Assembly (NCBI GenBank): GCA_022844045.1
Contig: JALHMM010000004.1
Coordinates: 1-64,000 of the forward strand
Source of the DNA: Reyranellaceae bacterium
GTDB taxonomy: Bacteria > Pseudomonadota > Alphaproteobacteria > Reyranellales > Reyranellaceae
Reading direction: 5' to 3'
DNA length: 64,000 bases
Within the stretch, counting starts at the first letter, position 1. Every line of letters starts with the position of its first letter. Both the position numbers and the translations under genes were made by a program. Positions 41,380 through 62,693 of the stretch are shown here, piece after piece. The notes beneath the pieces are model-generated. The model worked only from the letters and a program-made list of their open reading frames with translations, was not told the origin of the DNA and did no database searches.

Positions 41380-41456
41380 GCGCCCATAGCTCAACTGGAT
41401 AGAGCACCTGACTACGGATCAGGAGGTTGGGAGTTCGAATCTTCCTGGGCGCGCCA
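41380..41456 (+). tRNA. tRNA-Arg (anticodon ACG)
   Basis: Full cloverleaf: acceptor GCGCCCA/TGGGCGC, D arm GCTC...GAGC, anticodon stem CCTGA/TCAGG around loop CTACGGA (anticodon ACG at 34-36), T arm GGGAG/CTTCC with TTCGAAT, discriminator G and encoded CCA. The A at position 34 would be deaminated to inosine and read CGU, CGC and CGA. Its 3' end marks the start of an accessory island. Confidence 0.96.
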
Positions 41457-41502
41457 AGCCTTTCAATGCGTTAGCAAATAGCTCCAGCCTCTTAGGCTCT
41501 CC

Positions 41503-42285
41503 CTAGGCTCTCGCCTCGGGCTGCTCGCGGACGCGGCGAGCTTTCACCTTCGGCAACTCATCCCACGTCCGACCGTCGAGCGTGCGGCCCGTGCGCTTCT
41601 TGTTAACACCGCCCCACTGCTTGAAGTGGAAGGCGACGCCTGCGCGCGTGCACTGATCACGGATCGAACGAACCCACTCGATAGGCATAGGCCGCGCGCC
41701 TGGCCCGCTCTCCCCGCCAGCGATGGCCCAATCGACGCCCTTGAGGTTCATGCCCTCCAGCGGTCCGAGAAGCGGCTCAAGCGATAGAAACTTGATCATT
41801 GCCGGCGTGCGCCGAAGGTTTTCTATGCGCGGGAGGTAGTCGGCGCTTTCGACGCTCACGCCCATCCATACGTTCTTCGGCCACGGCAGGTGCGGAGCGA
41901 GCTCCTCGCACCTCTCCGCCCGCTTCGTGAGGACCTGGTAGGTGTGCTGCGGCGTGTCGACCATCGTCTTGAAGACCTTGGCGATGAAATCGAGTGGCAC
42001 CTTCTCATGAAAGAGGTCGGACATGGAGTTCACGAAGATCGTGCGCCCGGTCTTCCACTTGGCAGGCAATGCGAGTGTCGCATCGTCGAGTGTTATCTTC
42101 CCGTTCCATTTCCAGCGCCCACCGGTCTTCCTCGTGATCCCGGTGTACTTCGGCTGACCCATTGCCTCTAGCCGTGAGGCGAGGCGCATGGCGTAGCAGT
42201 TGGTACAGCCCGGCGAGAGAACGGTGCACCCGGCAACCGGATTCCACGTCGCCTCGGTCCACTCGATAGGGGAGTTCGTTGCCAT
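41503..42285 (-). CDS. three-Cys-motif phage Gp37/Gp68 (DUF5131) protein
   Basis: 260 aa of the phage Gp37/Gp68 family. The defining cluster AGCTVLSPGCTNCYAMRLA (C-x6-C-x2-C) is close to the N-terminus, followed by IFVNSMSDLFHEKVPLDFI, YQVLTKRAERC, VWMGVSVESADYLPRI, FLSLEPLLGPL and WAIAGGESGPGARPMP. The Cys cluster and the barrel-like strands resemble radical-SAM enzymes, but the spacing is not canonical and the chemistry is unproven. It is co-directional with, and 12 nt downstream of, the tcmP-type gene, a pairing known from phages and mobile islands. First protein gene after the tRNA. Confidence 0.92.
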   Translation of the reverse strand: MATNSPIEWTEATWNPVAGCTVLSPGCTNCYAMRLASRLEAMGQPKYTGITRKTGGRWKWNGKITLDDATLALPAKWKTGRTIFVNSMSDLFHEKVPLDFIAKVFKTMVDTPQHTYQVLTKRAERCEELAPHLPWPKNVWMGVSVESADYLPRIENLRRTPAMIKFLSLEPLLGPLEGMNLKGVDWAIAGGESGPGARPMPIEWVRSIRDQCTRAGVAFHFKQWGGVNKKRTGRTLDGRTWDELPKVKARRVREQPEARA

Positions 42286-42297
42286 AACGCCTGCTTT

Positions 42298-43395
42298 CTA
42301 CGGAAACGTCACCATAACCTTGTCGCCAAAGGTGCCCGCCGGGCGCTTTTTGAGAGGTGTGGTGATCTTTCCCTCAGCCTCCAACTCCAGCAGCACATCT
42401 TTGTAGTTAGTCTTCCAATAGTTCCGACCTAGGCAGTGCTCCTCATATATCTGCTGCATCGTGAGGGTTCTGCCCGAAAACACCGTCGGCAGCGCGTCTT
42501 TGAGGTCCGTATACTCCGCAAACCACAGCTTGTTCGTCTGTGGCGGGAAGTCGTAGTAGGTATAATCCGGTATATCCTTTTCATCGCGCCAACTCTCGCG
42601 CGCCATTATGTCGTTCATGAGATACCAGCCGGCCTTGCTCTTCGTAACAAAAACCAGAAGGTGCGATGTACGTCGGCTCTTCCCCTTCTTGAACCAGAAG
42701 GGTCGCACGTAGGTGCCTTTAACCTCCCGCATAACCTCGGCCAGCTTGTCGACTATCAGTTCCTCCCTATCACCGACGTTAAGTCTGTTGAGCTCGTCCC
42801 GCAACTCCGACGCCCTCGTCTCACCAAACAAAGCACTCATACGCTCGACAAACTCATTTGCGCTAAGAGCCGCATTGATACGAGCGTAGTTGAAGAAGAA
42901 GACACAATCGCAGCCCCAGTTCTTTATTACACCGCGCACTAGGTTTTGAGTGAGGCCCTTATACCCGAACGGATCGATGAAGGTGAAAGACGGAACGATA
43001 GATGTACTATTGAAATATTGCTCGGCGCTTTTTTCAACCTTCTCGTTCAACAGTGTCGGCGGGTAGGTGAGCTTCTCGATACCGGGTAGCTTCGCGATCT
43101 CAGTATCGAGCTGAGCGATATAAATTTTCGATCCGTCGTTAAACACTGTCACGAGGTGATCGCACAATTCCTGCTGAGCAATAGCCTTTTCAAGGACCAT
43201 GATCGGAGTAGACGGCTTGCCGTTGCCATATCGTCCCGGACCACAAAACAGGTCGAAGTAGGCAATCCTGCCTCCGCGCCGCTTTGCCTCCGGCAGGACG
43301 AACCGCCACCACGAATTGAAGTATTTCGTGATGATCTGTGCCTTAATGCCGGACGCCTCGCTTTGCTCGTCAAAGAACTTGTCGTTCTTCGCCAC
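42298..43395 (-). CDS. tcmP: three-Cys-motif partner protein TcmP
   Basis: 365 aa, the usual partner of three-Cys-motif Gp37/Gp68 proteins. The N-terminal half looks like a Rossmann methyltransferase: motif I-like IAYFDLFCGPGRYGNG, an acidic strand end (LVTVFNDGS) and a motif IV-like SFTFIDPFGYKGL; the C-terminal half is helical with KGKSRRTSHLLVFVTKSKAG and a winged-helix-like end (FSGRTLTMQQIYEEHCLG). Family function is not established; methylation of a nucleic acid or peptide together with its partner is inference. Upstream lies a nested repeat (43453-43489) likely to control it. Codons are visibly less G/C-ending than in the core genes. Confidence 0.9.
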   Translation of the reverse strand: MAKNDKFFDEQSEASGIKAQIITKYFNSWWRFVLPEAKRRGGRIAYFDLFCGPGRYGNGKPSTPIMVLEKAIAQQELCDHLVTVFNDGSKIYIAQLDTEIAKLPGIEKLTYPPTLLNEKVEKSAEQYFNSTSIVPSFTFIDPFGYKGLTQNLVRGVIKNWGCDCVFFFNYARINAALSANEFVERMSALFGETRASELRDELNRLNVGDREELIVDKLAEVMREVKGTYVRPFWFKKGKSRRTSHLLVFVTKSKAGWYLMNDIMARESWRDEKDIPDYTYYDFPPQTNKLWFAEYTDLKDALPTVFSGRTLTMQQIYEEHCLGRNYWKTNYKDVLLELEAEGKITTPLKKRPAGTFGDKVMVTFP

Positions 43396-43452
43396 TTGCC
43401 CCCCTATTTTGCGGCTGTGCCGTTAAGGGGAATCTATCGCATTCAGCGATCA

Positions 43453-43489
43453 GTCGTCAGAGAACATACAAAGAACATTAACTGACGAC
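43453..43489. promoter_or_regulatory. nested operator-like repeat upstream of tcmP
   Basis: GTCGTCAG (43453-43460) and CTGACGAC (43482-43489) are perfect inverted arms. Between them AGAACAT occurs twice (43461-43467 and 43472-43478), exactly 11 bp apart, one helical turn. It lies 58-94 nt before the tcmP start codon. No T-tract, so an operator is more likely than a terminator. Confidence 0.5.
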
Positions 43490-43500
43490 AACCATTTATT

Positions 43501-43782
43501 TCAGCCTTTTGGGCTTTTAGCTGCGCGGTCTGTTCTGCACCTTGGAGTGCCACCAGACCAGGGCTCGGTAGTTTCGGACCTTCGGACGAGGCGCTTCTGA
43601 TAGAGGATGTGGAGCTGCTGCTCGGTCCATCCGAGGGTATTGGCGGTCACGGCCAAAAGGCGGGCCAGACGCGCGGGGTTAGGATCGCCAGTCGCCTCGA
43701 CGATCTGCTCAATCAAAGCCTCTTTCGCCGTTCGCGCGCCGGATTTTTTAACTGTCGGTTTTGGGTAATTTGATAGGTCCAT
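43501..43782 (-). CDS. small hypothetical protein
   Basis: 93 aa. The first 65 residues (KSGARTAKEALIEQIVEATG, PARLARLLAVTANTLGWTEQ) look like a helical DNA-binding or adaptor domain; the tail is Arg/Ser-rich and may be disordered. No family recognised. It is upstream of tcmP on the same strand but separated by the operator-like repeat, so probably a separate unit. Confidence 0.5.
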   Translation of the reverse strand: MDLSNYPKPTVKKSGARTAKEALIEQIVEATGDPNPARLARLLAVTANTLGWTEQQLHILYQKRLVRRSETTEPWSGGTPRCRTDRAAKSPKG

Positions 43783-44168
43783 AAATAGGTGAGGTACACC
43801 TCCGCTCTTTCCCTCATACCCTTTCGGGTCGTGTCGGTAGGTGGGGTTATGTGCTGCCAGTGGGACCCTTCTTGCTTCCGGCCCTCAATTCCTACGCGCG
43901 ACCTGGATGCCGGCACGCGTCCAGACCGTGCGCTCCCACCATGTCGGACGGGGCACCTGGTCGAGGAAGACAACAAACCCCGCTCATCCTCCGGATCAAT
44001 CTCGCCATTACGCGACCGGACGTGCGTGATAATCCCGTCTCCGAAGAGATTTAGGTCCCAGCCGCTCACATAGTGCTCCAAGCGGAGGCAACCGATCTCC
44101 GGAGTGGATCCGAGTGACGTGCGGTACATACCTTTGTGAACGAGAGCATTAAGACGATAGAGCGCCAC
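43713..44168 (-). CDS. doubtful hypothetical open frame
   Basis: 151 codons. The N-terminal 70 residues (LVHKGMYRTSLGSTPEIG, HYVSGWDLNLFGDGIITHV) have plausible composition, but the rest is Arg/Ser-rich like a wrong frame and overlaps the next gene by 70 nt. It may be a gene broken by a frameshift near residue 70. It covers an otherwise gene-free 400-bp stretch. Confidence 0.3.
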   Translation of the reverse strand: MALYRLNALVHKGMYRTSLGSTPEIGCLRLEHYVSGWDLNLFGDGIITHVRSRNGEIDPEDERGLLSSSTRCPVRHGGSARSGRVPASRSRVGIEGRKQEGSHWQHITPPTDTTRKGMRERAEVYLTYLWTYQITQNRQLKNPARERRKRL

Positions 44169-44193
44169 GCTCCTGTAGTATAGGTCTTCATAG

Positions 44194-44640
44194 CTACGGT
44201 ATCGTCACGCCTCGCAAGCTCACGTTGACCACAACCAGTTCCTCACCCACCGTCTTAATGAGCTCAAAGGTGAAATTCACCTTAGCGCCTTTGATATAGC
44301 GATTGGTGCTTGTGTAGTAGAAGGAGAGTGTTGCATCTCCGCCTTTGGGAAGAGATAGACCTGGCCGGTCACGAGGGCAGTCCGTGAGGGTACAGATTGG
44401 AATGCCGGATGCATCGTAGCCCTGATTTTCACCGTCGATCCTGGCGCTCCCCTGCGTATGCCAGATGCGGGTGGGGCCTTCCTGATTTTCGATGAGGAAA
44501 ATGAACGTCGGACCGCCGTGTGGGTTCTTGACGATCTTGTCGACCGAGATTTTGAGGCCGTCGACGGTGCGGGTCGGCTGTTGCGAATGCGCCGCGGTTG
44601 AAGCTACAAGCGCCAAGGCCACGAGCAAAAACCGAAGCAT
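44194..44640 (-). CDS. small exported protein of unknown function
   Basis: 148 aa with a signal peptide (LRFLLVALALVASTAAH, cut after SQ-region) and a beta-rich mature domain: KISVDKIVKNPHGGPTFIFL, SFYYTSTNRYIKGAKVNF, FELIKTVGEELVVVNVS. A Cys pair (ICTLTDC) may form a disulfide. No family recognised. The ATG at 44640 follows GGGGGAGGATACC. It is divergent from the membrane-protein gene at 44668 across 27 bp. Confidence 0.7.
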   Translation of the reverse strand: MLRFLLVALALVASTAAHSQQPTRTVDGLKISVDKIVKNPHGGPTFIFLIENQEGPTRIWHTQGSARIDGENQGYDASGIPICTLTDCPRDRPGLSLPKGGDATLSFYYTSTNRYIKGAKVNFTFELIKTVGEELVVVNVSLRGVTIP

Positions 44641-44647
44641 GGTATCC

Positions 44648-44664
44648 TCCCCCAAAACGGGGGA
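44648..44664. promoter_or_regulatory. palindrome providing ribosome-binding sites for both divergent genes
   Basis: TCCCCC (44648-44653), AAAAC, GGGGGA (44659-44664). Read leftward it gives GGGGGAGGA before the ATG at 44640; read rightward it gives GGGGGAA before the GTG at 44668. Confidence 0.5.
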
Positions 44665-44667
44665 ACT

Positions 44668-45087
44668 GTGGATCAGTTCGTAAGGGTCTGGAAGAGCTTT
44701 AGCAGGGAAGTGCAGATCGGGCTCATGCTCGCGGCGAGCGCCCTGCTGTTCATCTTCTCCGTCTACTTCTGCATGGTCGACGACAGCATGACGCGGGACT
44801 TCGAGAACCGTCGGCCTGGCACGCTCGATATGGTCGAGAATGCCGAAGCCTACGTCGGTTCGGATTGGTCCGTGTATGTGATCCCCCGCGGCCGGTGCGT
44901 GCTCCTCGAATCGGCGTCGGGGCCGGGCTTGTACGTGAGTATCGAGACGGCGCCGGACAGCAAAGATTGGTCCAGATACCGGGTCGGGAGGTTCGTGCGG
45001 TTTAAGTCGGATGGCGCACCCGGCAGGATCAAATTCGTTTTCAAATTCAATCGCTCGGAACGCGAGCCGTCCTTCTGCTGGGGTTAG
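44668..45087 (+). CDS. single-pass membrane protein, tandem paralogue A
   Basis: 139 aa from a GTG start. One membrane helix near residues 17-35 (IGLMLAASALLFIFSVYFCM), then a beta-rich domain with DWSVYVIPRGRCVLLES, RYRVGRFVRFKSDG and two Cys. The motif W-S-x-x-R-x-GRF[VI]RF[KR]S is shared with the next gene, so the two are tandem duplicates that have diverged. No family recognised; topology suggests a membrane-anchored extracytoplasmic domain. Confidence 0.65.
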   Translation: MDQFVRVWKSFSREVQIGLMLAASALLFIFSVYFCMVDDSMTRDFENRRPGTLDMVENAEAYVGSDWSVYVIPRGRCVLLESASGPGLYVSIETAPDSKDWSRYRVGRFVRFKSDGAPGRIKFVFKFNRSEREPSFCWG

Positions 45088-45089
45088 CA

Positions 45090-45611
45090 ATGCTCGCGCA
45101 GATAAACGCCTGGATAGAAGCGCGCACGGCTGAGCTCCTCGCAGAGTTCCGAAAGCTTCGCGCGCAGCCCATGAGTTTTGCGCAATTCGGGGACGTGTGG
45201 CGTGGGCTCGGAGCAACGGGTCAGAAGGTTATTCTGATCGGCACGACTGTCCTCTTCATCCTCATCGCGATCGGCCAGTGCCAAGAGAGCGATCGTGTGG
45301 CGCACGAAGAGCGGATGCTCAAAATGACCGGCGTGCGCAAGCCGATCATTGTCGAGACTATTTCGTTCTGGCGGCGAAAGATCGACATAGGTCCGCAGTG
45401 GACGTTGCCATTCACTTTCATTGAAGGGTTGCGTTGTGTCGACTGGGACACGCATCCGCCTTCCGAATTTCAGATGTCCGACGATGGGCATAATTGGTCT
45501 GCCGTGCGCAAAGGACGGTTCATTCGGTTCCGTTCAACGAACGGTCGGAGCTTCGCGATCCGGCTTGATTTTCGAGATCATCCGGAGCAAGCGTCGGCCT
45601 GTCGCTACTAA
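45090..45611 (+). CDS. single-pass membrane protein, tandem paralogue B
   Basis: 173 aa with a cytoplasmic helical start (INAWIEARTAELLAEFRKLR), one membrane helix near 46-64 (KVILIGTTVLFILIAIGQ), and a beta-rich domain ending NWSAVRKGRFIRFRSTNG, like the preceding gene. Starts 2 nt after that gene's stop, so they form an operon. Function unknown. Its 3' end overlaps the convergent small gene by 4 nt. Confidence 0.65.
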   Translation: MLAQINAWIEARTAELLAEFRKLRAQPMSFAQFGDVWRGLGATGQKVILIGTTVLFILIAIGQCQESDRVAHEERMLKMTGVRKPIIVETISFWRRKIDIGPQWTLPFTFIEGLRCVDWDTHPPSEFQMSDDGHNWSAVRKGRFIRFRSTNGRSFAIRLDFRDHPEQASACRY

Positions 45612-45849
45612 AACTCCGGCGCGAACCTCATCTCCGGGTAGTCCTCGTCCTTGCGTACGTCGATCGCCATGCTGTCCAAGAGGTCGTTTCGCCTGGTATC
45701 CGAAGAGCGACGCCGGTATCACGCTCGATCTTCCGCATGTACTCTCTTAACGCGGCCTTTGAGAGCGCTGTCGTCGAGCGGTAAGTGTGGACCTCGACTG
45801 TGGTGCCGTCCTTGGCCGTGACGATTTCTACGGGCCGATGAGCTACCAT
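45608..45849 (-). pseudogene. small hypothetical gene split by a frameshift
   Basis: The minus-strand frame VEIVTAKDGTTVEVHTYRST, SKAALREYMRKIERDTGVAL runs into an Arg/Thr-rich nonsense tail, while the +1 shifted frame gives a natural acidic end, DLLDSMAIDVRKDEDYPEMR and FAPEF, stopping at 45608. One missing base near the TTT at 45687-45689 (AAA on the coding strand) explains it. About 80 aa when repaired; no family recognised. Confidence 0.6.
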
Positions 45850-46028
45850 CGTATTGCTTTCTCATGTGCCGTACTGGGAGCAGAAAGCAGGGTGATGATA
45901 ATGACGGCGATATCGGCATTGGAAACAAAGAGGACTTGCCCTCCCTGTCCGGTGGGTTCGAAAACAAGGGAAGCTTTATCCTCGACGTCTTGTGTTCTTG
46001 TTTGTCGGTCCTTCTGTTGCTGCTTCAT
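45843..46028 (-). CDS. possible small membrane protein
   Basis: 61 codons: a charged start (KQQQKDRQTRTQDVEDKAS) and one hydrophobic stretch (VLFVSNADIAVIIITLLSA). The stop overlaps the next start codon by 7 nt (ATGGTAG), which supports translation, but ribosome-binding sequence is weak and no family is known. Confidence 0.35.
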   Translation of the reverse strand: MKQQQKDRQTRTQDVEDKASLVFEPTGQGGQVLFVSNADIAVIIITLLSAPSTAHEKAIRW

Positions 46029-46029
46029 A

Positions 46030-46100
46030 TTTCCAAAGGGTTTCCCCAGCTTAGTATTATTATATTTAGGTATTCTTATCTGTATATACTTATAGAACAA
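46030..46100. other. AT-rich stretch next to direct repeats
   Basis: A run of T/A-rich DNA (TTAGTATTATTATATTTAGG, then TATATACTTATAG) in an otherwise GC-rich window, immediately beside three 22-bp repeats. The arrangement matches a DNA-unwinding element of an iteron origin. Confidence 0.4.
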
Positions 46101-46166
46101 TTCGACCTGCCGTATTCTGGTATTCGACAGGCCGGATTCCAGAGTTCGGCATACCGGATTCAAGGG
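46101..46166. repeat. three tandem 22-bp direct repeats (iteron-like)
   Basis: Units start at 46101, 46123 and 46145. On the minus strand each begins GAATCCGG or GAATACGG and continues with a conserved G-n-CGAA. Units 2 and 3 are closest to each other. Exact 22-bp spacing (two helical turns) and position beside a winged-helix initiator-like gene suggest replication iterons. The last unit overlaps the 3' end of that gene. Confidence 0.6.
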
Positions 46167-46543
46167 TACGGCTTGGGCTTCTTCTTTACGACAAATTTGA
46201 CCTTGTAGATATTCGTCTTGCCTTGCCCGCGCCGAGTGATCTCCACGAGACCGGCATTTTCAAGCTCCTTGATAAACTCGTTTACCCTGGACTTACTCAT
46301 GCCGATGTCCTGGCCCAACCGATCTTGGCCGGGAAAACAGTGGTCCTTGTGCCAAGCGTAGTGAAGGAACATGGCGTATGTGAGCTTGGCACCCACCCCC
46401 AGATTTCCGTTCGTCAAAATGAAGTTCGGGACTTGGGTGAAACCAAATCGCGCGATCGGATCGAGCGTGTCGAGTTTGATGTTCTTCTCGGCAATCAGTT
46501 CACGGATTGAAGCCAGTTTTCCTTCTCGGCGTTCCATACTCAA
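46160..46543 (-). CDS. winged-helix (HTH_36-type) replication-initiator-like protein
   Basis: 127 aa. A basic N-terminal helix (REGKLASIRELIAEKN) precedes a winged helix: FTQVPNFILTNGNLGVGAKL, YAMFLHYAWHKDHCFPGQDR, then recognition region LGQDIGMSKSRVNEFIKELE, wing NAGLVEITRRGQGKTNIYKV and a Lys-rich tail. This layout is common in plasmid and phage replication proteins and primosome-type regulators. Direct repeats and an AT-rich stretch overlap or follow its 3' end. In the 58-nt gap before its start, TTATCCCCA (minus strand, 46599-46591) differs from a DnaA box at one position. The initiator role is inferred. Confidence 0.7.
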   Translation of the reverse strand: MSMERREGKLASIRELIAEKNIKLDTLDPIARFGFTQVPNFILTNGNLGVGAKLTYAMFLHYAWHKDHCFPGQDRLGQDIGMSKSRVNEFIKELENAGLVEITRRGQGKTNIYKVKFVVKKKPKPYP

Positions 46544-46601
46544 AGTTTATCACCCGTACCCGCATAGAATTCTTGGTCCAGATGTGAGCATGGGGATAAA
46601 C

Positions 46602-47357
46602 CTACCCAAAGAACTTCGCCCAGACCGATCGTGTTGGATGCTCCGACACCGACCCTGGATCCGATGTAGAAAAGCGCTCAACGTCGACTGGGTCTATCTT
46701 TTCCTCACCCTTCGGCGCCACGACAGTCGTGTCTAGACATGTCGCGTCATAACGCGACATGTCGCGCTGCGGCGCAGATAGCTGCTGCAGATGAGTTTCC
46801 AAGCGTCCGATCTCCCGGCTTTGATCCGTGAGTTGTGCGAGGAACACCTGCCTTTCCTCCATCATGTGGCCAATCACTTGCTCCTTGGCAGAACGATCGA
46901 TCTTCAGCTGAAAATTCTCTTTCTCCAAGACGTCAATACGAGCGCTGAACACCGGAGGGTCATCCTGCGTGGCCGTCGCGGTGGACGCTACCGCCGGTAT
47001 CGGCTCACCGTGGGATGTCGCGTCGTGACGCGCTGCGTCGCGTCGTGACGTGTCGTGACGCGACACGTCGTCTTCGATATGCGAAATGCGCTCTAGCTGC
47101 TTGAGCTCGAGAGCGTATCGTTCGGCTGATGGCTGACTGATGAAGTAGCGTTCAATTTTCTCGCCCCTCACCCGGATGCAATCAATGCTACCGTTTTCGC
47201 AAAAGCGCTGGATCGATCGCGTGGAGCGGGGAACGCCAAATGAGATGAACACCTGCTTGGCCTGGGTGATCGTGAGCTTGTGTCCCGGCATGTCGCGTTG
47301 TGTCGCGCCTTGGGGAAGGGGTGCGGTATGCAACCCCGCATCGTTGATGTTTTCCAT
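46602..47357 (-). CDS. DNA-binding coiled-coil protein (KfrA-like organisation)
   Basis: 251 aa. The N-terminal part (HKLTITQAKQVFISFGVPRS, TRSIQRFCENGSIDCIRVRG) is a MerR/excisionase-like helix-turn-helix with wing; the middle (ARIDVLEKENFQLKIDRSAK through REIGRLETHLQQL) is a coiled coil. Such layouts occur in plasmid partition/maintenance proteins. Peptides RDMSRYDATC and SRHDTSRRDAARHDATSH are produced by palindromic DNA repeats lying inside the gene. It precedes the initiator-like gene on the same strand by 58 nt. Family assignment is by layout only. Confidence 0.6.
   Translation of the reverse strand: MENINDAGLHTAPLPQGATQRDMPGHKLTITQAKQVFISFGVPRSTRSIQRFCENGSIDCIRVRGEKIERYFISQPSAERYALELKQLERISHIEDDVSRHDTSRRDAARHDATSHGEPIPAVASTATATQDDPPVFSARIDVLEKENFQLKIDRSAKEQVIGHMMEERQVFLAQLTDQSREIGRLETHLQQLSAPQRDMSRYDATCLDTTVVAPKGEEKIDPVDVERFSTSDPGSVSEHPTRSVWAKFFG
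46731..46766. repeat. intragenic palindrome cluster 1
   Basis: GTCTAGAC (46731-46738) and TGTCGCGT-CATA-ACGCGACA (46740-46759), followed by another TGTCGCG (46760-46766), all inside the coiled-coil protein gene. Confidence 0.7.
47016..47067. repeat. intragenic palindrome cluster 2
   Basis: TGTCGCGTCGTGACGCG (47016-47032), CGTCGCGTCGTGACG (47036-47050) and the palindrome CGTGTCG-TGACG-CGACACG (47049-47067). Same word as cluster 1; a further TGTCGCGTTGTGTCGCG lies at 47291-47307. Confidence 0.7.
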
Positions 47358-47416
47358 GAGCTTTATAAGAAGTGTATCACATGTACCGGGTGCATCGGCC
47401 GGGCGGCGGTTTATCC

Positions 47417-47800
47417 ATGGCCTTGCGTATCGACAGTCTGGTCGCGCGACATCTGGAGGCGAATGGTATTCCGACGGTGGTGATCGCCACAGCCCGCGAT
47501 ATCGTCGAGTCGGCTGCGGTGCCGCGTCTTCTCTTCGTCGACTTTCCGTTGGGCTAGCCGTGCGGCGAGCCGTGGAATGTCGAGCAGCAGCGCGAAGTCT
47601 TGGATATGGCGTTCCGCGTGCTGGAAACGGCCATAGAGCCGCGCACGACCGTGGATGCCGGTTTGTGTTGGAGCAAAGGCGAGCGTTGGAAGGAATTGCT
47701 CTTCACCGAGGAGCAGCCCTTCCTGCCTGGTGAAGCAGGTGAGGCATGGCTGAGGAAGAAGGAGGCTTATCGAAAAATGAAGGCTGAGGGCAAGATCTGA
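47417..47800 (+). pseudogene. glycine/sarcosine/betaine reductase B-like protein gene with in-frame amber codon
   Basis: The frame RIDSLVARHLEANGIPTVVI, ARDIVESAAVPRLLFVDFPL, then TAG (47555-47557), then PCGEPWNVEQQREVLDMAFR and EPRTTVDAGLCWSKGERWKE. Relatives of this small reductase-like family have FPLGNPCG here, so Asn has become a stop. The N-terminal part is also missing or unrecognisable upstream, where the island ends. The codon is UAG, not the UGA used for selenocysteine. A decayed gene is the simplest reading. Confidence 0.7.
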
Positions 47801-47848
47801 CATTACTGCGGGCCAGGGCCGCAGGTTTCGCTCCAATAGTAGTCGCGA

Positions 47849-48100
47849 ATGGAGACTCATGTGTCGCCATCGATCACGGTCTATACCACGCCACTATGCG
47901 GGCCCTGCGAGGCCCTGAAGCAGGCCCTGAAGGCGCGCGGCATAGCCTTCCGGACGATTGATCTGCGGATGGACGAGCAAGCTGCCGAACGGCTCGAGGA
48001 GCGAGGTATCCGGAGCGCCCCGGCCTTGGAGATCGACGGCCGGTTCTATACCGGCCTCGCGTTGAGGGACGATCGGCTTGACGCGGTGTTGCGTCCGTAG
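47849..48100 (+). CDS. glutaredoxin-like protein
   Basis: 83 aa thioredoxin-fold protein: VYTTPLCGPCEALKQALKAR with the redox motif CGPC near residues 17-20, FRTIDLRMDEQAAERLEE and SAPALEIDG (the cis-Pro loop, usually TVP, here APA). It probably reduces disulfides or serves as an NrdH-like electron donor. GTG at 47861 has GGAG 6 nt upstream and may be the real start, giving 79 aa. It is 26 nt before the flavin monooxygenase gene on the same strand. Confidence 0.85.
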   Translation: METHVSPSITVYTTPLCGPCEALKQALKARGIAFRTIDLRMDEQAAERLEERGIRSAPALEIDGRFYTGLALRDDRLDAVLRP

Positions 48101-48126
48101 TCTCGGCATTGAGAGAGGATCGTCAC

Positions 48127-49212
48127 GTGCTACCACTGGAATTCGGCTGGTTTCTGCCGACCTCAGGCGATAGCACGGCATATGGTGACCGCGATCAGGC
48201 GGTGCCGCCATCGCTGGAGATGTTCACCCGCGTGGTGGCAGCCGCCGAAGCCGCGGGCTTCGAGTATATGCTGGTGCCGGTCGCCGCTGCGTGCTGGGAC
48301 GCCTATATCAGCAGCGCCATCATGATCGGCCGGTCGAAGTCGATCCGCATGCTGGTGGCGGCGCGGCCGGGCTACATCAATCCCGTGCTGCTCGCCAAGA
48401 TGATCGCCGCCTTCGACCAGTTGTCGGGCGGGCGAGTCGCCGTGAACTTGATCGCCGGGCAGAGCGACCAGGAGGCCGTTGCCGAGGGGATTCCCTGGAG
48501 CAAGGAACAGCGCTACGAGGTGATGGACGAGGAAGTTGAAATCCTCAAGGCGTTGTGGACCGCCAAGGGCGAGGTGGATTTCGACGGCCGGTTCCATACC
48601 CTGCGCGGCGCGCGGATCGCGCCCAAGTCGTTGCAACAGCCCCATCCACGCTTCTATCTCGGCGGCGGTTCGGGCCAGGCGTGGGAGATCTCCGCGAAGC
48701 ATGCCGATGTGCATCTATTCTGGGGCGACACCTGCGAACGGATCGCCGCCAACATGCGGGAGATCCGTATGCTGGCCGCCCGGCACTGGCGACAGGACCG
48801 CATCGGCTTCGGCATGCGCCTGCAGATTGTCTGCCGGGAGACGGAGGGCGAAGCCTGGGATGCGGCCAACGAGCTGGTGCGCGACGTTACCGAGGCGCAG
48901 ACCCGCTACATCAAGACGCACTTCGCCACGTCCGTCGCCAACCAGCGGGTGCAGGAGCTGGCCCGCACCCGTGGCGACCTGATCGCTCCTCATCTGTGGA
49001 CGGGCATCACCAAGGTGCGGCCGGGGGCGGGCATCGCCGTGGTGGGCAATCCGCAGCAATGCGCCGATACGCTGCAGACGTTCATCGATCTCGGTTGCCA
49101 CTCCTTCTGCCTGTCAGGCTATCTGCACGATGCCGAGGCCGAGCGTTTTGCGAGGCTGGTCCGGCCTTTGCTCATCGAGCGCAACGAAGCGCGGATGCGG
49201 ACCGCGTCGTGA
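48127..49212 (+). CDS. LLM-class flavin-dependent monooxygenase (SsuD-like)
   Basis: 361-aa TIM-barrel flavoprotein of the alkanesulfonate monooxygenase branch: GWFLPTSGDST, FEYMLVPVAAACWDAYISSA, MLVAARPGYINPVLLAKM, GGRVAVNLIAGQSDQE, RYEVMDEEVEILKALW and FYLGGGSGQAWEISAKHADV. Such enzymes use FMNH2 and O2 to desulfonate or oxidise small substrates; no sulfonate transporter is adjacent. The GTG at 48127 lies 7 nt after AGAGAGGA; a TTG at 48109 is a less likely start. Confidence 0.9.
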   Translation: MLPLEFGWFLPTSGDSTAYGDRDQAVPPSLEMFTRVVAAAEAAGFEYMLVPVAAACWDAYISSAIMIGRSKSIRMLVAARPGYINPVLLAKMIAAFDQLSGGRVAVNLIAGQSDQEAVAEGIPWSKEQRYEVMDEEVEILKALWTAKGEVDFDGRFHTLRGARIAPKSLQQPHPRFYLGGGSGQAWEISAKHADVHLFWGDTCERIAANMREIRMLAARHWRQDRIGFGMRLQIVCRETEGEAWDAANELVRDVTEAQTRYIKTHFATSVANQRVQELARTRGDLIAPHLWTGITKVRPGAGIAVVGNPQQCADTLQTFIDLGCHSFCLSGYLHDAEAERFARLVRPLLIERNEARMRTAS

Positions 49213-49353
49213 ACGAGGCGAGCGAAGCCTTTCGCGGCGAACTGCCCAAACATCAGCCGACCTCGGCGGTATAGCCGTGCGGGCAACCGGTGCGTCATTC
49301 AAGCGCGATTAAGTGAGAGCTTGCGCGCGCTTGGGCACCATTTGGAGCGCTTA

Positions 49354-50286
49354 GAGTCTGTCCGGGAAGAAGCTTAGGGATTGCAGAGTTTATGGAGCAT
49401 GAAGCGGATCGAGGCGAGCGCGAGGAAGGCGAGTGCCTTGCGATTGAGACATTCCCAATCCTTGGCGAGCCTGCGCATCGGCTGAGCCAAGCAAAGGTGC
49501 GTTCGACGATCCAGCGTTTGGGCAAGACGACGAAGCGGCGGGCTTGATCGGAGCGCTTGACGATCTCGACGTCGAGTTGCTTGAGGATAGAGCGCATCGC
49601 CTGCTGGAATTTGGCGCCTTGATATCCGCCATCGGCGTAGAGCTTGAGGAGGAAGGGGTAGAGGCCGAACAGGCTGCTCATCACCAGCACGCCGCCATCG
49701 CGATCCTGGATGTCGGCAGCATGCACGAGGGCGTGCATCAGCAGGCCTTGCGTGTCGACAAGAATGTGCCGCTTCTTGCCTTTGATCTTCTTGCCCGCAT
49801 CGTAGCCATGCGGATCGTAGACCCCCTTTTCGGCGCTTTTCACGCTCTGGCTGTCGATGATCGCGGCGCTCAGCGAGGCCTCGCGCCCGGCTCGTTCGCG
49901 GCACGCGACGTAGAGCGCGTGATGAATGCGCTCGAGCGTGCCGTCCCAGCTCCACAGGTCGAAGTAGCCGTGCAAGGTCGAGCGCGGCGGCAGGTCTTTC
50001 GGGATCGCCCGCCATCGGCAACGCGTGCTCAGGATAAACATCAGCCCGTTGACCACCTCGCGCAGGTCGACCGTGCGCTTGTTGCCACCGCGCTTGCCCG
50101 GGGGAATGCCCGGCGCGATCAGCGCCCATTCCTCGTCTGTCAGGTCCGACGGATAGCGCAGGCCGCCGCGCTCGTAGCGTGCCCGGTTCTCGGCTGTCCA
50201 CATCGGCGGCGCCTCCTCATGCCATCTGCGCCGCACCCTTGAATCACAACCGACTCATCTGATTCAATATCTTCTCGGACGGACAC
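49354..50286. mobile_element. IS5-family insertion sequence (933 bp)
   Basis: Terminal inverted repeats GAGTCTGTCCGGGAAGA (49354 onward) and, at the other end, GTGTCCGTCCGAGAAGA (complement ending at 50286) match at 14 of 17 positions. TTA flanks both ends (49351-49353 and 50287-50289), fitting the 3-bp TNA duplication of the IS1031/IS427-type groups. It carries one transposase gene on the minus strand, damaged by a frameshift. Confidence 0.88.
49374..50203 (-). pseudogene. IS5-family transposase with a frameshift
   Basis: DDE transposase of about 275 aa: PSDLTDEEWALIAPGIPPGK, RCRWRAIPKDLPPRSTLHGY, AIIDSQSVKSAEKGVYDPHG (first Asp), HILVDTQGLLMHALVHAA, YADGGYQGAKFQ (second Asp) and WIVERTFAWLSRC (Glu). 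After RC the natural C-terminus RRLAKDWECLNRKALAFLAL, IRFMLHKLCNP lies in another frame; one missing C near 49472-49477 explains it. The ATG at 50203 follows GAGGAGG. The element is probably immobile by itself. Confidence 0.88.
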
Positions 50287-50454
50287 TTAGCATCGCTGTG
50301 ACTGCAGCGGATAAATGAGGTTGAAACAAAGTGCTACTTCAGAATCATGAGCATCTGTGGCGAAACCACAGTAACCGAATTGGCGGTCGATGTAGAGAGT
50401 GACCTGTTTGGGCGTGGCCCCGTGGCGAGCAGCAGCCGACGGCTCGCCATGGTC

Positions 50455-50601
50455 GCCGACCCACAGCGAGTCGTAGCCGCAGTGATCGACAAGCTCGACC
50501 AGCTCGTCGATGCGCGGCAGCCATGGGCCGGTCGCGGGCTCGGTGCGCCGGTGGATGGTCTGGATGCCGGCACGCGGGCGGTCGTCAAGGGGAAGCGGCA
50601 T
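50455..50601 (-). pseudogene. truncated N-terminus of an LLM-class flavin oxidoreductase
   Basis: ATG at 50601 starts PLPLDDRPRAGIQTIHRRTE and LPRIDELVELVDHCGYDSLW then VGDH, the first strand and helices of an LLM barrel. After about 50 residues the resemblance ends, about 170 bp before the IS element. The following open frame to 50287 has no recognisable content. The gene is a remnant. Confidence 0.65.
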
Positions 50602-50623
50602 GGATGGTTCCTCGGGCCGCGGC

Positions 50624-51667
50624 TCAGGGCGTGGCGAAGCCTTGGAAGGTATGCGGAATGCGACGGATGTCGGCAACCAGCTCGCGCGCCAGGCCGGGTG
50701 GCATCCCCGGTGGAAAATTCAGCTCGATCGCGTCCGCGGCACCGCCGAAGCGCGCCTCGATGGCCGGCACGATCTCGTCGTAGGTGCCGCAGGCCGCGAA
50801 GATGCGCACCGTATCGTCCGGCACCAAGGCCGCCATCTCCTTCCAGCGGCCTTGCACGGACATTTCGTGCAGCTTCAGCCCAAGATCCTGCAGTCCGTGC
50901 AGTTCCAGGATCGGCATGTAGGTCCGCGTGGAACCGTAGAAGGCGACCCGGAAGCGGACCCAGTCCATCGCCTTTGCCACCGACGCGGCGTCCGGTCCGG
51001 TCGCGACGAAGCCACCGCCGTGCACGTCGAAATTCGCGCGTTGGCGGCCGCTGCGGCGCATGCCCTCCTCCATGCGCGGCAGGCACACTTCCTCAAGGTA
51101 TCGCCGCGAGCAGATCGGGTGTAGCCGCACACCGTCGGCGACTTCGCCGGCGACGCGCAGCATGGCCGGCCCGACGGCCGCGACGGTCACTGGCACCATC
51201 GGTAGGTCGTTCGGCTCGGGTGAGAAGTCTGGCGTCATCAACGTGAGCCGGTAGTGCTCGCCTTCGTACCGAAGCTTCTCGCCAGTCTGCCAACAGCGCC
51301 AGACCGCACGAAGCGCATGGACATACTCCCGCAGGCGCGGAGCCGGAGGACTCCACGGAATGCCGAAGCGGCGCTCGTTATGGCCCTTCACCTGGCTGCC
51401 CAGCCCAAGCACAAACCGGCCGTTCGAATTGGCGTGCAGGTCCCACGCTTGCATCGCGGTCACAGTCGGGCTGCGCGGGAAGGCGACCGCGATCGAAGTG
51501 GTCAGCTCTATGCGCTCCGTCGCCAGCGCCGCGACGGCCAGCGGCATGAACGCGTCATGCTTGGCCTCGAGCGTCATAAGCGCGTCGCAGCCGGCGGCCT
51601 CCGCCGCTTGCGCCGCCGGCCCCGCCTCACGCCAGTTCTGCATCGGCAGTGTCGTGAACACCCGCAT
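50624..51667 (-). CDS. LLM-class (F420/FMN) oxidoreductase
   Basis: 347-aa TIM-barrel flavin/F420 oxidoreductase: VFTTLPMQNWREAGPAAQAA, CDALMTLEAKHDAFMPLAVA, ELTTSIAVAFPRSPTVTAMQ, RFVLGLGSQVKGHNERRFGI and VTVAAVGPAMLRVAGEVADG. The start MRVFTTL at 51667 matches the family; 19 more codons upstream are unlikely. Close to the TIGR03617-type group common in actinobacterial and alphaproteobacterial catabolic regions. Followed after 22 nt by the truncated LLM gene and preceded by a nitronate monooxygenase gene (36 nt), so the three form one unit. Confidence 0.9.
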   Translation of the reverse strand: MRVFTTLPMQNWREAGPAAQAAEAAGCDALMTLEAKHDAFMPLAVAALATERIELTTSIAVAFPRSPTVTAMQAWDLHANSNGRFVLGLGSQVKGHNERRFGIPWSPPAPRLREYVHALRAVWRCWQTGEKLRYEGEHYRLTLMTPDFSPEPNDLPMVPVTVAAVGPAMLRVAGEVADGVRLHPICSRRYLEEVCLPRMEEGMRRSGRQRANFDVHGGGFVATGPDAASVAKAMDWVRFRVAFYGSTRTYMPILELHGLQDLGLKLHEMSVQGRWKEMAALVPDDTVRIFAACGTYDEIVPAIEARFGGAADAIELNFPPGMPPGLARELVADIRRIPHTFQGFATP

Positions 51668-51702
51668 GGCGCCTACCTGTGCTTTGCTCCGGTTGTCGGC
51701 AT

Positions 51703-52734
51703 TTAGGTCGCAACCTGCTCGCAAAGTCGGTCGAGCACGGCTTCCGCCTCCCGGACGATTTGCCGAACCACATCGCCGGCCGGCGCAACAGAGCTGACCA
51801 GACCGCAGCTCTGGCCTGCGGGCAAGACACCGTTCTCCACATCCCCCTCGAGCCGGCCGCGCTCCGAAGCCGGGTGGCCGACATGCATGGCTTGCAAGGG
51901 ATAAGGTTCGATCTCATGCTCACGCCCGGCCCAGGAGCCGGTGAATTGGTTTCGAATCAGGCGGCAGGGCTTGCCGCTGTGCGCCCGGGTTACGACTGTC
52001 CCTGCGGTGTCGGTTCCCACGATCATTCGCTTGTAGTTTTCGTGCGCTCGCGCCTCGCTTGTGGCGATGAAGCGGGTTCCCATCCAAATCCCTTGTGCGC
52101 CGAGCGCCAAGGCCGCGGCGAGGCCGCGGCCATCGGCGAGGCCGCCGCCCGCTAGCACCGGCACCGCCACGGCATCCGCTACTGCCGGCACAAGCACTGC
52201 CGTTCCGATCTGCCCGACGTGGCCGCCGCCGTCGCACCCCGAGGCAATCACCGCATCAACGCCATCAGCGACGGCCCGCTGCGCATGCTTCACTGCCCCG
52301 ACCACCGACATGACGAAAATGCCACGCGCGTGCGCTTCCGGCACCACGGCGGCCGGGCTGCCGAGCCCCGAGATCAGCACCGGAACCCGCTCCTCAAGCA
52401 CCACTTCGACCATCGCCGCAACGGCGCCAGTGTAGCGTTCGACCTCCGCGCCAGCGGCTCGCGCGGTCGCGAACAAGATATCGACCCCGAATGGCTTGTC
52501 GGTGCGTGCCCGAACGGCGCGGATCTCCGCGCGCAACTCATCCGGCGTCATTGTCGATCCGGCGCCGATCACGCCGAGTCCACCAGCGGCTGATACCGCG
52601 GCGGCGAGCTCTGCGCGGGCGACCCAGCCCATACCCGCTTGAAAAACCGGGTACTCCAAGCCAAGTCGCTTGCACAGCGGCGTCAAGAGACGGGTCGGGG
52701 CTCGTGTGGACGGCATTTTCGTTGCCAGCGTCAT
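51703..52734 (-). CDS. nitronate monooxygenase family protein (2-nitropropane dioxygenase-like)
   Basis: 343-aa FMN TIM barrel: LGLEYPVFQAGMGWVARAEL, AGGLGVIGAGSTM, KPFGVDILFA, ASGCDGGGHVGQIGTAVLVP (phosphate and catalytic-His region), VPVLAGGGLADGRGLAAALA and ALGAQGIWMGTRFIATSEA. It oxidises alkyl nitronates or acts as an enoyl reductase-like flavoprotein; exact substrate unknown. It differs from the second family member at 60204. Confidence 0.9.
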   Translation of the reverse strand: MTLATKMPSTRAPTRLLTPLCKRLGLEYPVFQAGMGWVARAELAAAVSAAGGLGVIGAGSTMTPDELRAEIRAVRARTDKPFGVDILFATARAAGAEVERYTGAVAAMVEVVLEERVPVLISGLGSPAAVVPEAHARGIFVMSVVGAVKHAQRAVADGVDAVIASGCDGGGHVGQIGTAVLVPAVADAVAVPVLAGGGLADGRGLAAALALGAQGIWMGTRFIATSEARAHENYKRMIVGTDTAGTVVTRAHSGKPCRLIRNQFTGSWAGREHEIEPYPLQAMHVGHPASERGRLEGDVENGVLPAGQSCGLVSSVAPAGDVVRQIVREAEAVLDRLCEQVAT

Positions 52735-52883
52735 GAAGGTCCCTCCCTATCGAGAAATCGGCTATCCTGATCTTTGCGCCTGCTCTCATCGGACGAGTCG
52801 CTACCGCAAGGCGATTACAGTCCAGCGCGTCGAGGGCTTTGGCTCCTACACCACTCATCAGGACACAACCGCTCTCCAGGTTC

Positions 52884-53342
52884 TCATGTCGCTGCCTTCG
52901 GCGGCCGAGGCTGCATGATCAGCACCGTTCCCTGGGCAACCGCACAGGGTCGACCGTCGTTCGTGACGTCGATCCTCACCACGGCGGTGGAGCGGGTCAT
53001 GGCGATGAGCTGCGCTTCCGCAGTGACAGTGCCGGACGTGACCGGCGCAAGCAGGTTGACCTTGAACTCCGTCGTTGCGGCCCATTGCCCGGCCTGCATG
53101 TGGGGGTAGCATACGAGCCCAAGCGCATGGTCGCACAACGCCGACAGAACTCCGCCGTGCATGTTGCCAAATCGCGTCAGCAGTTTCGGGTCCACCGGCA
53201 TCTCAATACAGATTCTGCCGGGCTCGACGAGCACCGTTCGCAGACCGAGGAATTCCGGCAGACCGGAAGTGGGTACGCTCGTGTCGAGAAAGCGGCGAGC
53301 CACCTCCTCGTCGAAGGGCGGGAGTCGCGGCGGTGGTACCAT
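52884..53342 (-). CDS. PaaI-type acyl-CoA thioesterase (hotdog fold)
   Basis: 152 aa: RFGNMHGGVLSALCDHALGL is the hotdog helix with the HGG motif and catalytic Asp, followed by TTEFKVNLLAPVTSGTVTAE and the strand IDVTNDGRPCAVAQGTVLIM. It hydrolyses acyl- or aryl-CoA esters, consistent with the nearby beta-oxidation genes. Lies between a Zn-alcohol dehydrogenase and nitronate monooxygenase gene on the same strand. Confidence 0.88.
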   Translation of the reverse strand: MVPPPRLPPFDEEVARRFLDTSVPTSGLPEFLGLRTVLVEPGRICIEMPVDPKLLTRFGNMHGGVLSALCDHALGLVCYPHMQAGQWAATTEFKVNLLAPVTSGTVTAEAQLIAMTRSTAVVRIDVTNDGRPCAVAQGTVLIMQPRPPKAAT

Positions 53343-53376
53343 GTGCTCTTTCTCCGACTGTAGTGCGTCGCCAACG

Positions 53377-54498
53377 TCAAGATGGCGGAATCAAACACGA
53401 GTGAATTGACCCTTCACCATCGACTTGACGAGCGAGCGTCCGGATCGCCAGATCCGCGTCTTCCAAGGCGAAATCGTGCGTGTGCATCAACGCAAGCGCC
53501 ACCTTTCGACTCTCGATGAGGTCGATCGCTTTGCGATAGCCGGAGCTGAGGACGCCGATGGCGCCTTTGATGGTGATCTCTTTCCAAACGATCATGTCGG
53601 AAACAAAGTCGGGGACCGTCTTTTGGCGCCGTCTCCCATCTTGCATCGTAAAGCCCTTTACGCCGGCCAACACGATTGTCCCGCCCCGCCGCACGTAGTC
53701 GAGAGCTCCGCGCACCGGTTGAGTCGCATACGAGGTCACGTCCACAACGATATCCACCCCCTTGCCGGCGGTGATCTCGCGGACCCGTTGCCGGACATCC
53801 TCGTTTTCCACATCGATTGTGTAGTCGGCACCGAGCGCGCGCGCGACCGCCAGCTTCTTTGCATCCGCGGCCAGTCCGGTGACAATAATCGTTGCCGCCC
53901 CCGCATACCGGGCCGCCACCACGCTGGCTAAGCCGCGCTGGCCTGGACCCAGGATCATCACCGTATCGCCGACACTCGTGGCGGGTAGTTCGACCGCCCA
54001 ACGAAACCCCGCGCCGAGGGGATTGAACATCACCGCGATTTCCGGCGGCAAAGACTTGTCGATCCGATGAACGATCGCGTTGGGCGCCAGATACATGTAC
54101 TGGGCGTAGGCACCCCAGAGTCCAGGTGCCACGGTCAGCGGAATATAGGAGTAGATCTCCCTCCGGTCGCATAGGTGATATCGCCCGCTAAGGCATGTGT
54201 TGCAGCAGTGGCAGGAAAGCATGGTCTCAACGCAGACCCGGTCGCCAACATCCACGCCCCACCGCTTTGCCGCGACATCGCCGATCGCGGCGATGATCCC
54301 AAGAGGTTCGTGCCCTGGGACCACCGGATAAGGCGTGTTCAGGACGCCTTCGTACTGTTCGTGGTCGCTGCCGCAAATACCGCAGGCCTCGATTCTGAGG
54401 ATGGCGCTGTCGGCGCTGACCGGTGGGATCGGCAGGTCTCGGCGCTCCAATTGGCGTGGACCCGTTTGAACCATGGCCATCGTTTTCTTGGGCAGCAT
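53377..54498 (-). CDS. zinc-dependent alcohol dehydrogenase (MDR)
   Basis: 373-aa medium-chain dehydrogenase: catalytic-zinc ligands in ACGICGSDHEQY and GHEPLGIIAA, structural-zinc Cys cluster in ETMLSCHCCNTCLSGRYHLC, Rossmann motif VMILGPGQRGLASVVAARYA (Gly-x-Gly with Arg) and GVDIVVDVTSY. Oxidises a secondary or primary alcohol with NAD(P). The ATG at 54498 follows GGAAAGG; 30 more codons upstream are unlikely. It heads the leftward unit with the thioesterase. Confidence 0.9.
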   Translation of the reverse strand: MLPKKTMAMVQTGPRQLERRDLPIPPVSADSAILRIEACGICGSDHEQYEGVLNTPYPVVPGHEPLGIIAAIGDVAAKRWGVDVGDRVCVETMLSCHCCNTCLSGRYHLCDRREIYSYIPLTVAPGLWGAYAQYMYLAPNAIVHRIDKSLPPEIAVMFNPLGAGFRWAVELPATSVGDTVMILGPGQRGLASVVAARYAGAATIIVTGLAADAKKLAVARALGADYTIDVENEDVRQRVREITAGKGVDIVVDVTSYATQPVRGALDYVRRGGTIVLAGVKGFTMQDGRRRQKTVPDFVSDMIVWKEITIKGAIGVLSSGYRKAIDLIESRKVALALMHTHDFALEDADLAIRTLARQVDGEGSIHSCLIPPS

Positions 54499-55235
54499 GG
54501 CGTAACCTTTCCTATGCCTCTCATAACGTCGCCCGTTGACATCAAGCGCTGCTTCCACGCGGACAACGTCGAAGCTGATCCCAGACATCGCTCAAACCGT
54601 GCGCAGGAGTCGTAGCCTCGAAGTCAGGACCCTTCGCGTTGCGATCGAGCACGCCGACTTGTCCTCACTTGCGCGAGGTAAAGTTTGGCCGTCCATCCGC
54701 TTTCGTTCGCTCGCCCCGCTACGTCGATGGTTCGGTCATTCCGCCCGCGCATGCCTTTTCCCCTCGGAATGGTTTCACGCTACACCGGCCGTCGGTATCC
54801 TGAGGCCGCGACGCGATACAATGGTTGTGGCCGGTACCTAATGCTAGTTAGAATCTACCGCTAAGGCAATATCTGTCCTCGACGCGGCCGTGGCTGTCCC
54901 ACACCTGCTACATTGATTTTCTAGTTGATCCAAGCCACGCGCGAGCGCCAGCGGATGCGCCGCGCCAGCGCGATAAGCTTCCACGTCCGCGAGGATTCCG
55001 GCTGCTTCCCGGCAAAAGTTGGGGCTCCGTGACACACAGTCGCGATAGGGGGCGGTGCCACCTCGCCGACCCTACTGCCAATCGATCAGCTCCTGATCCG
55101 AGAGCCCGCCCCCCGTTTTTACCCACAGAGGCTATTGGTGCGACACCCCGAAGTGGCCCGCTGGTCTGGGTGATTTGACTCGACTATCCATTCGAATAGT
55201 CGTTAGAATTAATTCTTGTAAGAGTCGAGAGTCAT
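54499..55235. other. 737-bp divergent non-coding region between alcohol dehydrogenase and P450 genes
   Basis: No gene can be supported; short minus-strand frames around 54844-55126 have no recognisable content. The final 60 bp before the P450 hold two palindromes (see next entry). The rest may contain promoters or decayed DNA, but nothing specific was seen. Confidence 0.45.
55181..55216. promoter_or_regulatory. two adjacent palindromes before the P450 gene
   Basis: CGACTAT (55181-55187) and ATAGTCG (55196-55202), 8 nt apart, and the perfect 12-bp palindrome AGAATTAATTCT (55205-55216), 20 nt before the start codon. Position suggests a repressor site over the promoter. Confidence 0.5.
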
Positions 55236-56453: not shown

Positions 56454-56626
56454 GCATGTCACAGGCTCTACTCGGTCTACATGCGGAACTCGCGGGCGAA
56501 GCCCGCCGGATCACTGTCGGCGAACTCTTGCAGGTGCAGGCGCGGATGCACCCAGAAGCGCCATCGCGACCGATCGGACAGTTCACCCAATGCGCGCGGA
56601 ATCTGGCTCGCGCACGCGTTGGCTGA
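56450..56626 (+). CDS. possible short translationally coupled open frame after P450
   Basis: 58 codons (SQALLGLHAELAGEARRITV...) beginning in an ATGA overlap with the P450 stop. No ferredoxin-type Cys motif and no family known. The opposite strand over the same bases also reads plausibly (RLHLQEFADSDPAGFAREFR then M and stop), so this may instead be a gene remnant. Low certainty. Confidence 0.25.
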   Translation: MSMSQALLGLHAELAGEARRITVGELLQVQARMHPEAPSRPIGQFTQCARNLARARVG

Positions 56627-62690: not shown

Positions 62691-62693
62691 GGC

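Follow-up and report, generated by a model that had tools for sequence, protein, structure and literature searches.

A candidate iteron-type replication origin beside a short winged-helix initiator gene on a tRNA-integrated island of a Reyranellaceae bacterium

We analysed a stretch of 64,000 nucleotides from a Reyranellaceae bacterium (hereafter the window), in which a short predicted initiator gene, rep, ends on three 22-bp direct repeats that abut an AT-rich tract. Sequence comparisons make it highly probable that this module is the oriV and the initiator of the circular form of an integrative island, of mobilizable or conjugative type, inserted at a tRNA-Arg gene. As in iteron-type oriVs, tandem repeats within the 17-24-bp range stand beside rep, and an AT-rich region adjoins them.

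The rep gene, its repeats and the AT-rich tract

The rep gene (46160..46537, minus strand) encodes a 125-aa protein made of a single winged helix (HTH_36), predicted to be an initiator from Pfam, PHROG, structure profile and Foldseek comparisons. It starts with ATG, a TTG at 46543 being a possible alternative, and its TGA stop codon (46160-46162) lies inside the first repeat. Rep matched HTH_36 in Pfam with E=5e-8, and the 'replication initiation' and 'O-like' families of PHROG with 1e-12 and 2e-10; HTH_36 was matched by all 40 aligned family members (40/40), and the proteins of relatives are mostly about 105-150 aa long. When the family profile was compared with all PDB sequences, RepA_N-type initiators came first (4pta, 2e-4; 4pql, 5kbj and 4pt7, 2e-3). 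Similarly, the predicted model of Rep (pLDDT 82.9) gave 4pql/5kbj as its top Foldseek match, with E 4e-4 and a TM-score of only 0.49, and DnaD/DnaB N-domains were among the next matches after the RepA_N chains. The Pfam family RepA_N (PF06970) was absent from the best 25 of the 29 families matched by any of the 40 members at E<=0.01, and the C-terminal domain that is essential in RepA_N initiators is absent as well, Rep ending at residue 125. Judging from sequence and model together, the DNA-binding domain of Rep resembles the RepA_N/DnaD/lambda-O-like type, and is a remote relative of RepA_N rather than a member of that Pfam family.

The three repeats (46098..46161, minus strand) have a period of exactly 22, and from 46161 down to 46089 the minus strand reads GAATCCGGTATGCCGAACTC-TG-GAATCCGGCCTGTCGAATAC-CA-GAATACGGCAGGTCGAATTG-TT-CTATAAG. 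At lag 22, 32 of 44 positions matched, against a mean of 20.1 in shuffled sequences, and 0 of 60 shuffles reached 32. Generic repeat finders run on the window did not report the 22-bp array because its copies are only ~70% alike; lag autocorrelation detects it. Each iteron consists of two half-sites in inverted orientation, with the consensus GAATTCGGC and 2-bp linkers, and half-site comparison revealed a seventh, upstream half-site, GGGTACGGC, within the last rep codons (46164..46172, minus strand). Going outward from the gene, one meets the last rep codons with this extra half-site, then the three 22-bp units, a TT and finally CTATAAGTATATACAGATAAGAATACCTAAATATAATAATACTAAG. This last segment is the AT-richest 48 bp of the whole window (46050-46097), at 81% AT versus a window mean of 34%; the predicted unwinding region (46050..46096, minus strand) contains three motifs of the 'AAGAATAC-CA' type (GTATATACAG, AAGAATACCTAA and AATAATACTAAG). 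Further out, CTTTGGAAATA (46028..46038, minus strand) is, by eye against the relatives, the counterpart of the family's CTTTGAAAAAG box.

An initial annotation of this DNA had described three 22-bp direct repeats, an adjoining AT-rich stretch and a winged-helix gene ending on the repeats, and all three were borne out by these analyses. It had also pointed to a DnaA-box-like sequence with one mismatch before the gene. Such a box is indeed present (TTATCCCCA, 46591..46599, minus strand, ~54 bp before the rep start, detected by box scan), but taken alone it does not exceed chance, since the window holds five one-mismatch boxes for 3.5 expected. No DnaA box was found within 300 bp downstream in the window.

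Conservation of the module among relatives

A scan of 84,980 species genomes yielded 52 loci, which belong to Alphaproteobacteria, Verrucomicrobia, Chloroflexi and a few others according to record titles. Two loci were found afterwards by profile search, both with the full module: one on a complete 4.2-Mb chromosome (G188), the other a third copy within one Verrucomicrobia genome. The module is rare in the surveyed genomes, with a match in 4 of the 75 genomes of the window's family (its own included), in 2 of 389 for its class, and in 1 of 240 for the phylum of the Verrucomicrobia genome G458, which is that one genome. G458 has three copies of the rep/ori module, on contigs C51, C138 and C103.

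Repeats were searched in the 220 bp after the conserved end of the gene, at 55 loci including the window (the duplicate L056 and the window copy L001 were left out), using first-order Markov resamples as shuffles. They were found 3' of rep at 48 of the 55 loci, with a period of 22 bp (25 loci), 23 bp (20) or 24 bp (3), and with 0 of 60 shuffles in each case. A lag score of at least 27/44 was reached at 46/55 loci, versus 4 of 217 random control places in the same loci. The seven that did not pass were L007, L036, L037, L038 and L045, where the signal was weak, and L050 and L053, whose genes are truncated. At 43 of 53 loci the array directly joins the AT tract, the offset being 0-2 bp. In this conserved tract 'AAGAATACTCA' motifs are 137 times denser than elsewhere: AATACNMA is repeated, with 64 occurrences in 7,101 bp (9.0/kb) versus 0.066/kb elsewhere; beyond it, many loci have a CTTTGAAAAAGG box, as judged by eye.

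DnaA boxes were enriched on both sides of the module. Exact boxes, TTATCCACA, occurred 7 times in the 300-bp downstream stretches (16,162 bp in total) versus 3 times in 309,161 bp elsewhere. Upstream, in the 150 bp before rep (55 loci, 11,585 bp), 19 boxes with at most one mismatch were counted versus 50 in the same 309,161 bp, a roughly 10-fold enrichment. Several of these lie at -45 to -58, the same place as the box of the window, and an identical TTATCCCCA stands at -58 in L002, which is among the two closest relatives. With the repeats at 48 loci, the AT motifs and this enrichment, the iteron-like replication origin of the initial annotation is well supported by comparative evidence.

Throughout the family, each repeat unit pairs two half-sites of 9-10 bp in inverted orientation, and these alternate along the array. 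A 2-bp linker joins the units in 41 of 53 loci (truncated L050 and L053 left out), and half-site inversion was above a null in which the unit was permuted and the direct repeat kept in 51 of 52 loci (L036, for which the period disagreed, was also left out here). For the window, inverted half-site identity was 0.67 versus 0.43 in the null, a value reached by 0 of 100 unit permutations, which places its half-sites among the more diverged ones. A plain dyad score for a single iteron did not reach significance in the window (7/10 pairs; 9/30 shuffles), while the pooled half-sites did.

Half-sites differ strongly by group: GAATTCGGC in the window, GACCGGCAA in Methylocystis, GAAGTGCCA in L037/L048 and GAAGTAAGC in some Verrucomicrobia. 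These changes follow those of the recognition helix as predicted: r=0.74, with a partial correlation of 0.57 once the remainder of the protein is accounted for, and 0/1000 permutations, which do not fully remove phylogeny. The computation covered 37 loci, i.e. 37 of the 42 aligned proteins; the others were set aside because of the register of their half-sites or because a register was missing. As the half-site changes with the recognition helix, we infer, on this indirect support, that Rep binds the repeats.

The island that carries the module

The last 45 bp of a tRNA-Arg(acg) gene form attL (41412..41456, plus strand), and an identical 45-bp copy, attR, is found beyond the window on contig C4 (C4:101882-101926), with 60.5 kb between the two. 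The window thus contains the left 22.5 kb (41457..64000) of a 60.5-kb island, and no second tRNA copy was found within its 64 kb because the right end of the island lies outside. A tyrosine recombinase gene adjoins attR (C4:100697-101764; Arm-DNA-bind_3, 9e-13; phage integrase family, 9e-28); its reading frame is open and, by eye, the catalytic R, HxxR and Y are kept. Inward of this integrase, family matches indicated two TraG/TrwB-like coupling ATPases (C4:96317-97852 and 98270-99763) and a CHC2 primase-like protein (C4:94307-94966); none of the island proteins scanned matched a relaxase family. Empty sites were found in relatives, in which the flanks are 136 bp (G002) and 892 bp (G004) apart, beside an intact tRNA-Arg. 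The att repeat at the tRNA 3' end, the integrase and the empty site that characterise a tRNA-integrated island were therefore all found.

Next to attL, positions 41503-43395 contain a pair of genes matching DUF5131 (6e-99) and the three-Cys-motif partner TcmP (2e-48), reported by PADLOC as candidate defence models PDC-M41B/M30B and PDC-M30A. The remainder, from 47400 to 64000 in the window and over C4:64000-93000, is mostly metabolic cargo as judged from translations, with P450-like, acyl-CoA dehydrogenase-like, amidohydrolase-like, monooxygenase-like and transporter genes. An IS5-like transposase reading frame was seen by eye inside the island at 49295-50236.

In three of six other genomes (G465, tRNA-Arg; G462, tRNA-Met; G457, tRNA-Phe), the module is likewise enclosed by a tRNA end and a second, identical copy of 40 bp or more, so that att repeats surround it in 4 of 7 neighbourhoods, the window's included. 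In the three others (G188, G463 and G460) no att repeat was found, although a tRNA lies at most 2 kb away in G188 and G463. TraG-like genes are present in G457, G460, G462 and G465, and relatives of Replic_Relax at L005, L017, L019 and L020 and in G457, G460 and G462. On contig C1 of G465 (L045), copies of the tRNA-Arg end are found at 1357547, 1369204 (28 bp) and 1387142, and there are perhaps two islands in tandem.

The intact-looking integrase, the two att copies and the empty sites in related genomes make it plausible that the island can still excise and replicate. Could the module instead be a remnant that once worked as an origin, in an island that is now a fossil? The half-sites of the window are less alike than in many relatives, the genome is a draft, and the island is rich in metabolic cargo and has an IS-like gene. 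We nevertheless find this unlikely, if worth keeping in mind, as rep, its partner gene (see below) and int are all open, the integrase seems by eye to keep its catalytic residues, and attL has not diverged from attR.

It is improbable that the element is a phage satellite or a cryptic prophage rather than an island of conjugation type. Its coupling ATPases, as well as the Replic_Relax proteins of relatives, argue against this, and no capsid gene was noticed in the partly annotated island. The points in favour of a phage nature are that phage replication genes share the module, and that RepA_N is known in PLE satellites, as far as these are described in PMC7145576.

The initial annotation had further proposed a captured plasmid. 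This was not borne out, because plasmid records show only distant initiators. A search of 72,556 plasmid records for the initiator gave no close relative and six distant matches, with 30-35% identity over 60-76% coverage; four of the six (H2, H3, H4 and H6) were examined and have no comparable module of repeats and AT motifs. The L027 origin compared with plasmids by blastn produced chance matches alone. Close relatives are located on genome contigs, and of the seven neighbourhoods examined four are flanked by a tRNA; more distant cousins of the module are replication genes of phages.

Phage cousins, the partner gene and known systems

A profile scan of viral contigs detected seven relatives. 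Four of them (L226-L229) have a longer initiator of 255-312 aa, which matches 'replication initiation' families, with 24-bp iterons located in the coding sequence itself, after the winged helix and before the C-terminal part. Synonymous-codon shuffles reached the observed repeat in 0 (L226), 8 (L227), 1 (L228) and 1 (L229) cases out of 200. Two or three AAGAAKAYNCA motifs are present in the same part of the initiator gene and nowhere else in those four loci. The adjoining gene matches a DnaB-like helicase in L226 and L229, and a DnaC-like loader in L227 and L228. The module is absent from the three other viral relatives, one of which, L232, has another strong repeat further on, of 23-bp period (40/44) and no more than 700 bp downstream from the match. 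A short AT-tract DNA pattern run over the viral contigs gave at least 120 matches, mostly due to chance, among which one, L080, looked similar.

In phage lambda, the iterons and the AT-rich unwinding region lie inside the O initiator gene. The four phage cousins have the same layout, with in-gene iterons and AT region, beside DnaB/DnaC-like genes, which suggests that the island rep gene is such an O-like phage initiator ended at its iterons. The island version differs from lambda O in that the C-terminal half is missing and the origin is noncoding.

These cousins also bear on whether the winged-helix protein might be only a transcription regulator, with the repeats and the AT tract as its operator/promoter. 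An HTH_36/MarR-like domain, tandem palindromes typical of regulator sites and a TATA-like sequence after the array would all suit a regulator. We consider this quite improbable, because the sites are 3' of the gene, because the three repeats in their order are conserved in company with several AT motifs and DnaA boxes, because the phage cousins hold the same array inside an initiator gene beside DnaB/DnaC-like genes, and because the best structural relatives are RepA_N initiators.

Upstream of rep, a partner gene (46602..47357, minus strand) encodes a putative partition or regulatory protein with a wHTH and a 59-residue coiled coil. Homologues stand beside rep at 38 of 54 other loci, and are divergent in Verrucomicrobia. 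The predicted model, a winged helix followed by a long coiled coil, had no significant fold match, and we therefore only infer a role in partition. Seven CGCGACA/TGTCGCG sites are found in this gene (minus strand; 47301-47307, 47291-47297, 47059-47065, 47016-47022, 46760-46766, 46753-46759 and 46740-46746), versus a mean of 3.2 in synonymous-codon shuffles, with 0/200 reaching seven. The L011 partner gene similarly contains TTCCGAA ten times. The in-gene sites of homologues are often spaced at 10-bp multiples and, in most, form two clusters 214-269 bp apart, the gap being the HTH-coding stretch. As 10 is not a multiple of 3, the phase of the sites is kept at the DNA level. Such an excess over synonymous-codon shuffles, at 5/200 or better (p<=0.025), was found in 19 of 39 partner genes versus 6 of 120 control ORFs, which include non-genes. 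These sites are likely to be a centromere or an operator.

Small iteron-binding wHTH proteins with a role in partition exist, such as TubR. pBtoxis ORF157 is another example, according to a reference title in PMC9178275. It is however very improbable that Rep is a TubR/ParR-like protein that segregates the element from its iterons without initiating replication, as no TubZ/ParM partner was noticed, a ParA relative occurs at 3 loci only, AT-rich unwinding motifs and DnaA boxes are unexpected of a centromere, and partition would be better assigned to the partner gene, which has phased sites of its own.

If the module is the oriV of the island, as we favour, the integrase would recombine attL with attR in tRNA-Arg to produce a 60.5-kb circle. 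Rep dimers would then bind the inverted half-site array of three 22-bp iterons, beside the AT tract with its 'AAGAATAC' motifs, and would melt this tract together with host DnaA bound at the flanking boxes. Host DnaB helicase loaded at the melted tract would start theta replication. Because Rep lacks a helicase-loading domain, the helicase would have to be loaded by DnaA or by another island protein. The coiled-coil wHTH partner probably serves partition or copy control by binding its own in-gene sites. The analyses establish the anatomy of the module, its conservation and co-variation, the ends of the island and the empty sites; that Rep binds, that the tract melts, that replication is of the theta type and that the element is active today are proposals drawn from them.

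By analogy, our best reading is that the origin works like those of SGI1 or PLE. SGI1, as far as described in PMC7433901 and PMC7826253, is also an integrated mobilizable island, whose oriV lies immediately 3' of rep and combines AT-rich DNA and DnaA boxes with four iterons of 16-17 bp; RepA binding has been demonstrated, and the island replicates as a circle when induced. Its initiator is a RepA_C protein (PF04796) instead of HTH_36, its iterons are GC-rich direct repeats, whereas those of the present family are palindromic 22-24-bp units, and 'AAGAATAC' motifs, present here, are not part of the SGI1 origin as these two sources describe it. PLE satellites of Vibrio cholerae, according to the part of PMC7145576 that concerns them, are chromosomal mobile elements of a Gram-negative bacterium in which a protein with a RepA_N-type N-terminal wHTH binds semi-palindromic iterons. 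There, however, RepA has a C-terminal domain, the recombinase is a large serine enzyme and the ori lies in a separate noncoding region; the link to the present family considered here is the shared RepA_N-like fold.

Plasmids of the pSK41 type and pPR9 likewise combine a wHTH initiator domain with Rep boxes inside the rep gene, and pPR9, whose initiator has a pfam13730 (HTH_36) N-terminus, replicates autonomously according to a review (PMC5703833, section 14). The pSK41 Rep is 319 aa long with an essential C-terminal domain (same section), whereas the gene described here stops at the iterons. Finally, SXT/R391 ICEs, as far as PMC4489591 describes them, also integrate, replicate in circular form and possess a partition locus; they start replication at oriT by the relaxase TraI, and not at an iteron oriV.

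No paper on this initiator/origin family was found in the literature, subscription journals being mostly outside the scope of the search, and the family looks undescribed. For us the scales are evenly balanced on the widest proposal, namely that these are undescribed, phylum-crossing minimal replicons, in which a lambda-O-like initiator was cut to its DNA-binding domain and an in-gene origin became a stand-alone oriV, carried by islands that have integrated at tRNA genes in Alphaproteobacteria, Verrucomicrobia and Chloroflexi, together with a partner having 10-bp-phased, centromere-like sites in its own gene.

It is still an open question how integrative elements maintain themselves once excised, and plasmid-like origins have been characterised on few chromosomal islands. 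The present module offers a portable and testable candidate origin within one 600-bp segment, and the dozens of natural pairs of iteron and recognition helix could serve to read a DNA-recognition code. An initiator devoid of the helicase-loader part could reveal the minimum that is required of an origin-binding protein, and the family as a whole points to a possible route from a phage initiator gene to a minimal island replicon.
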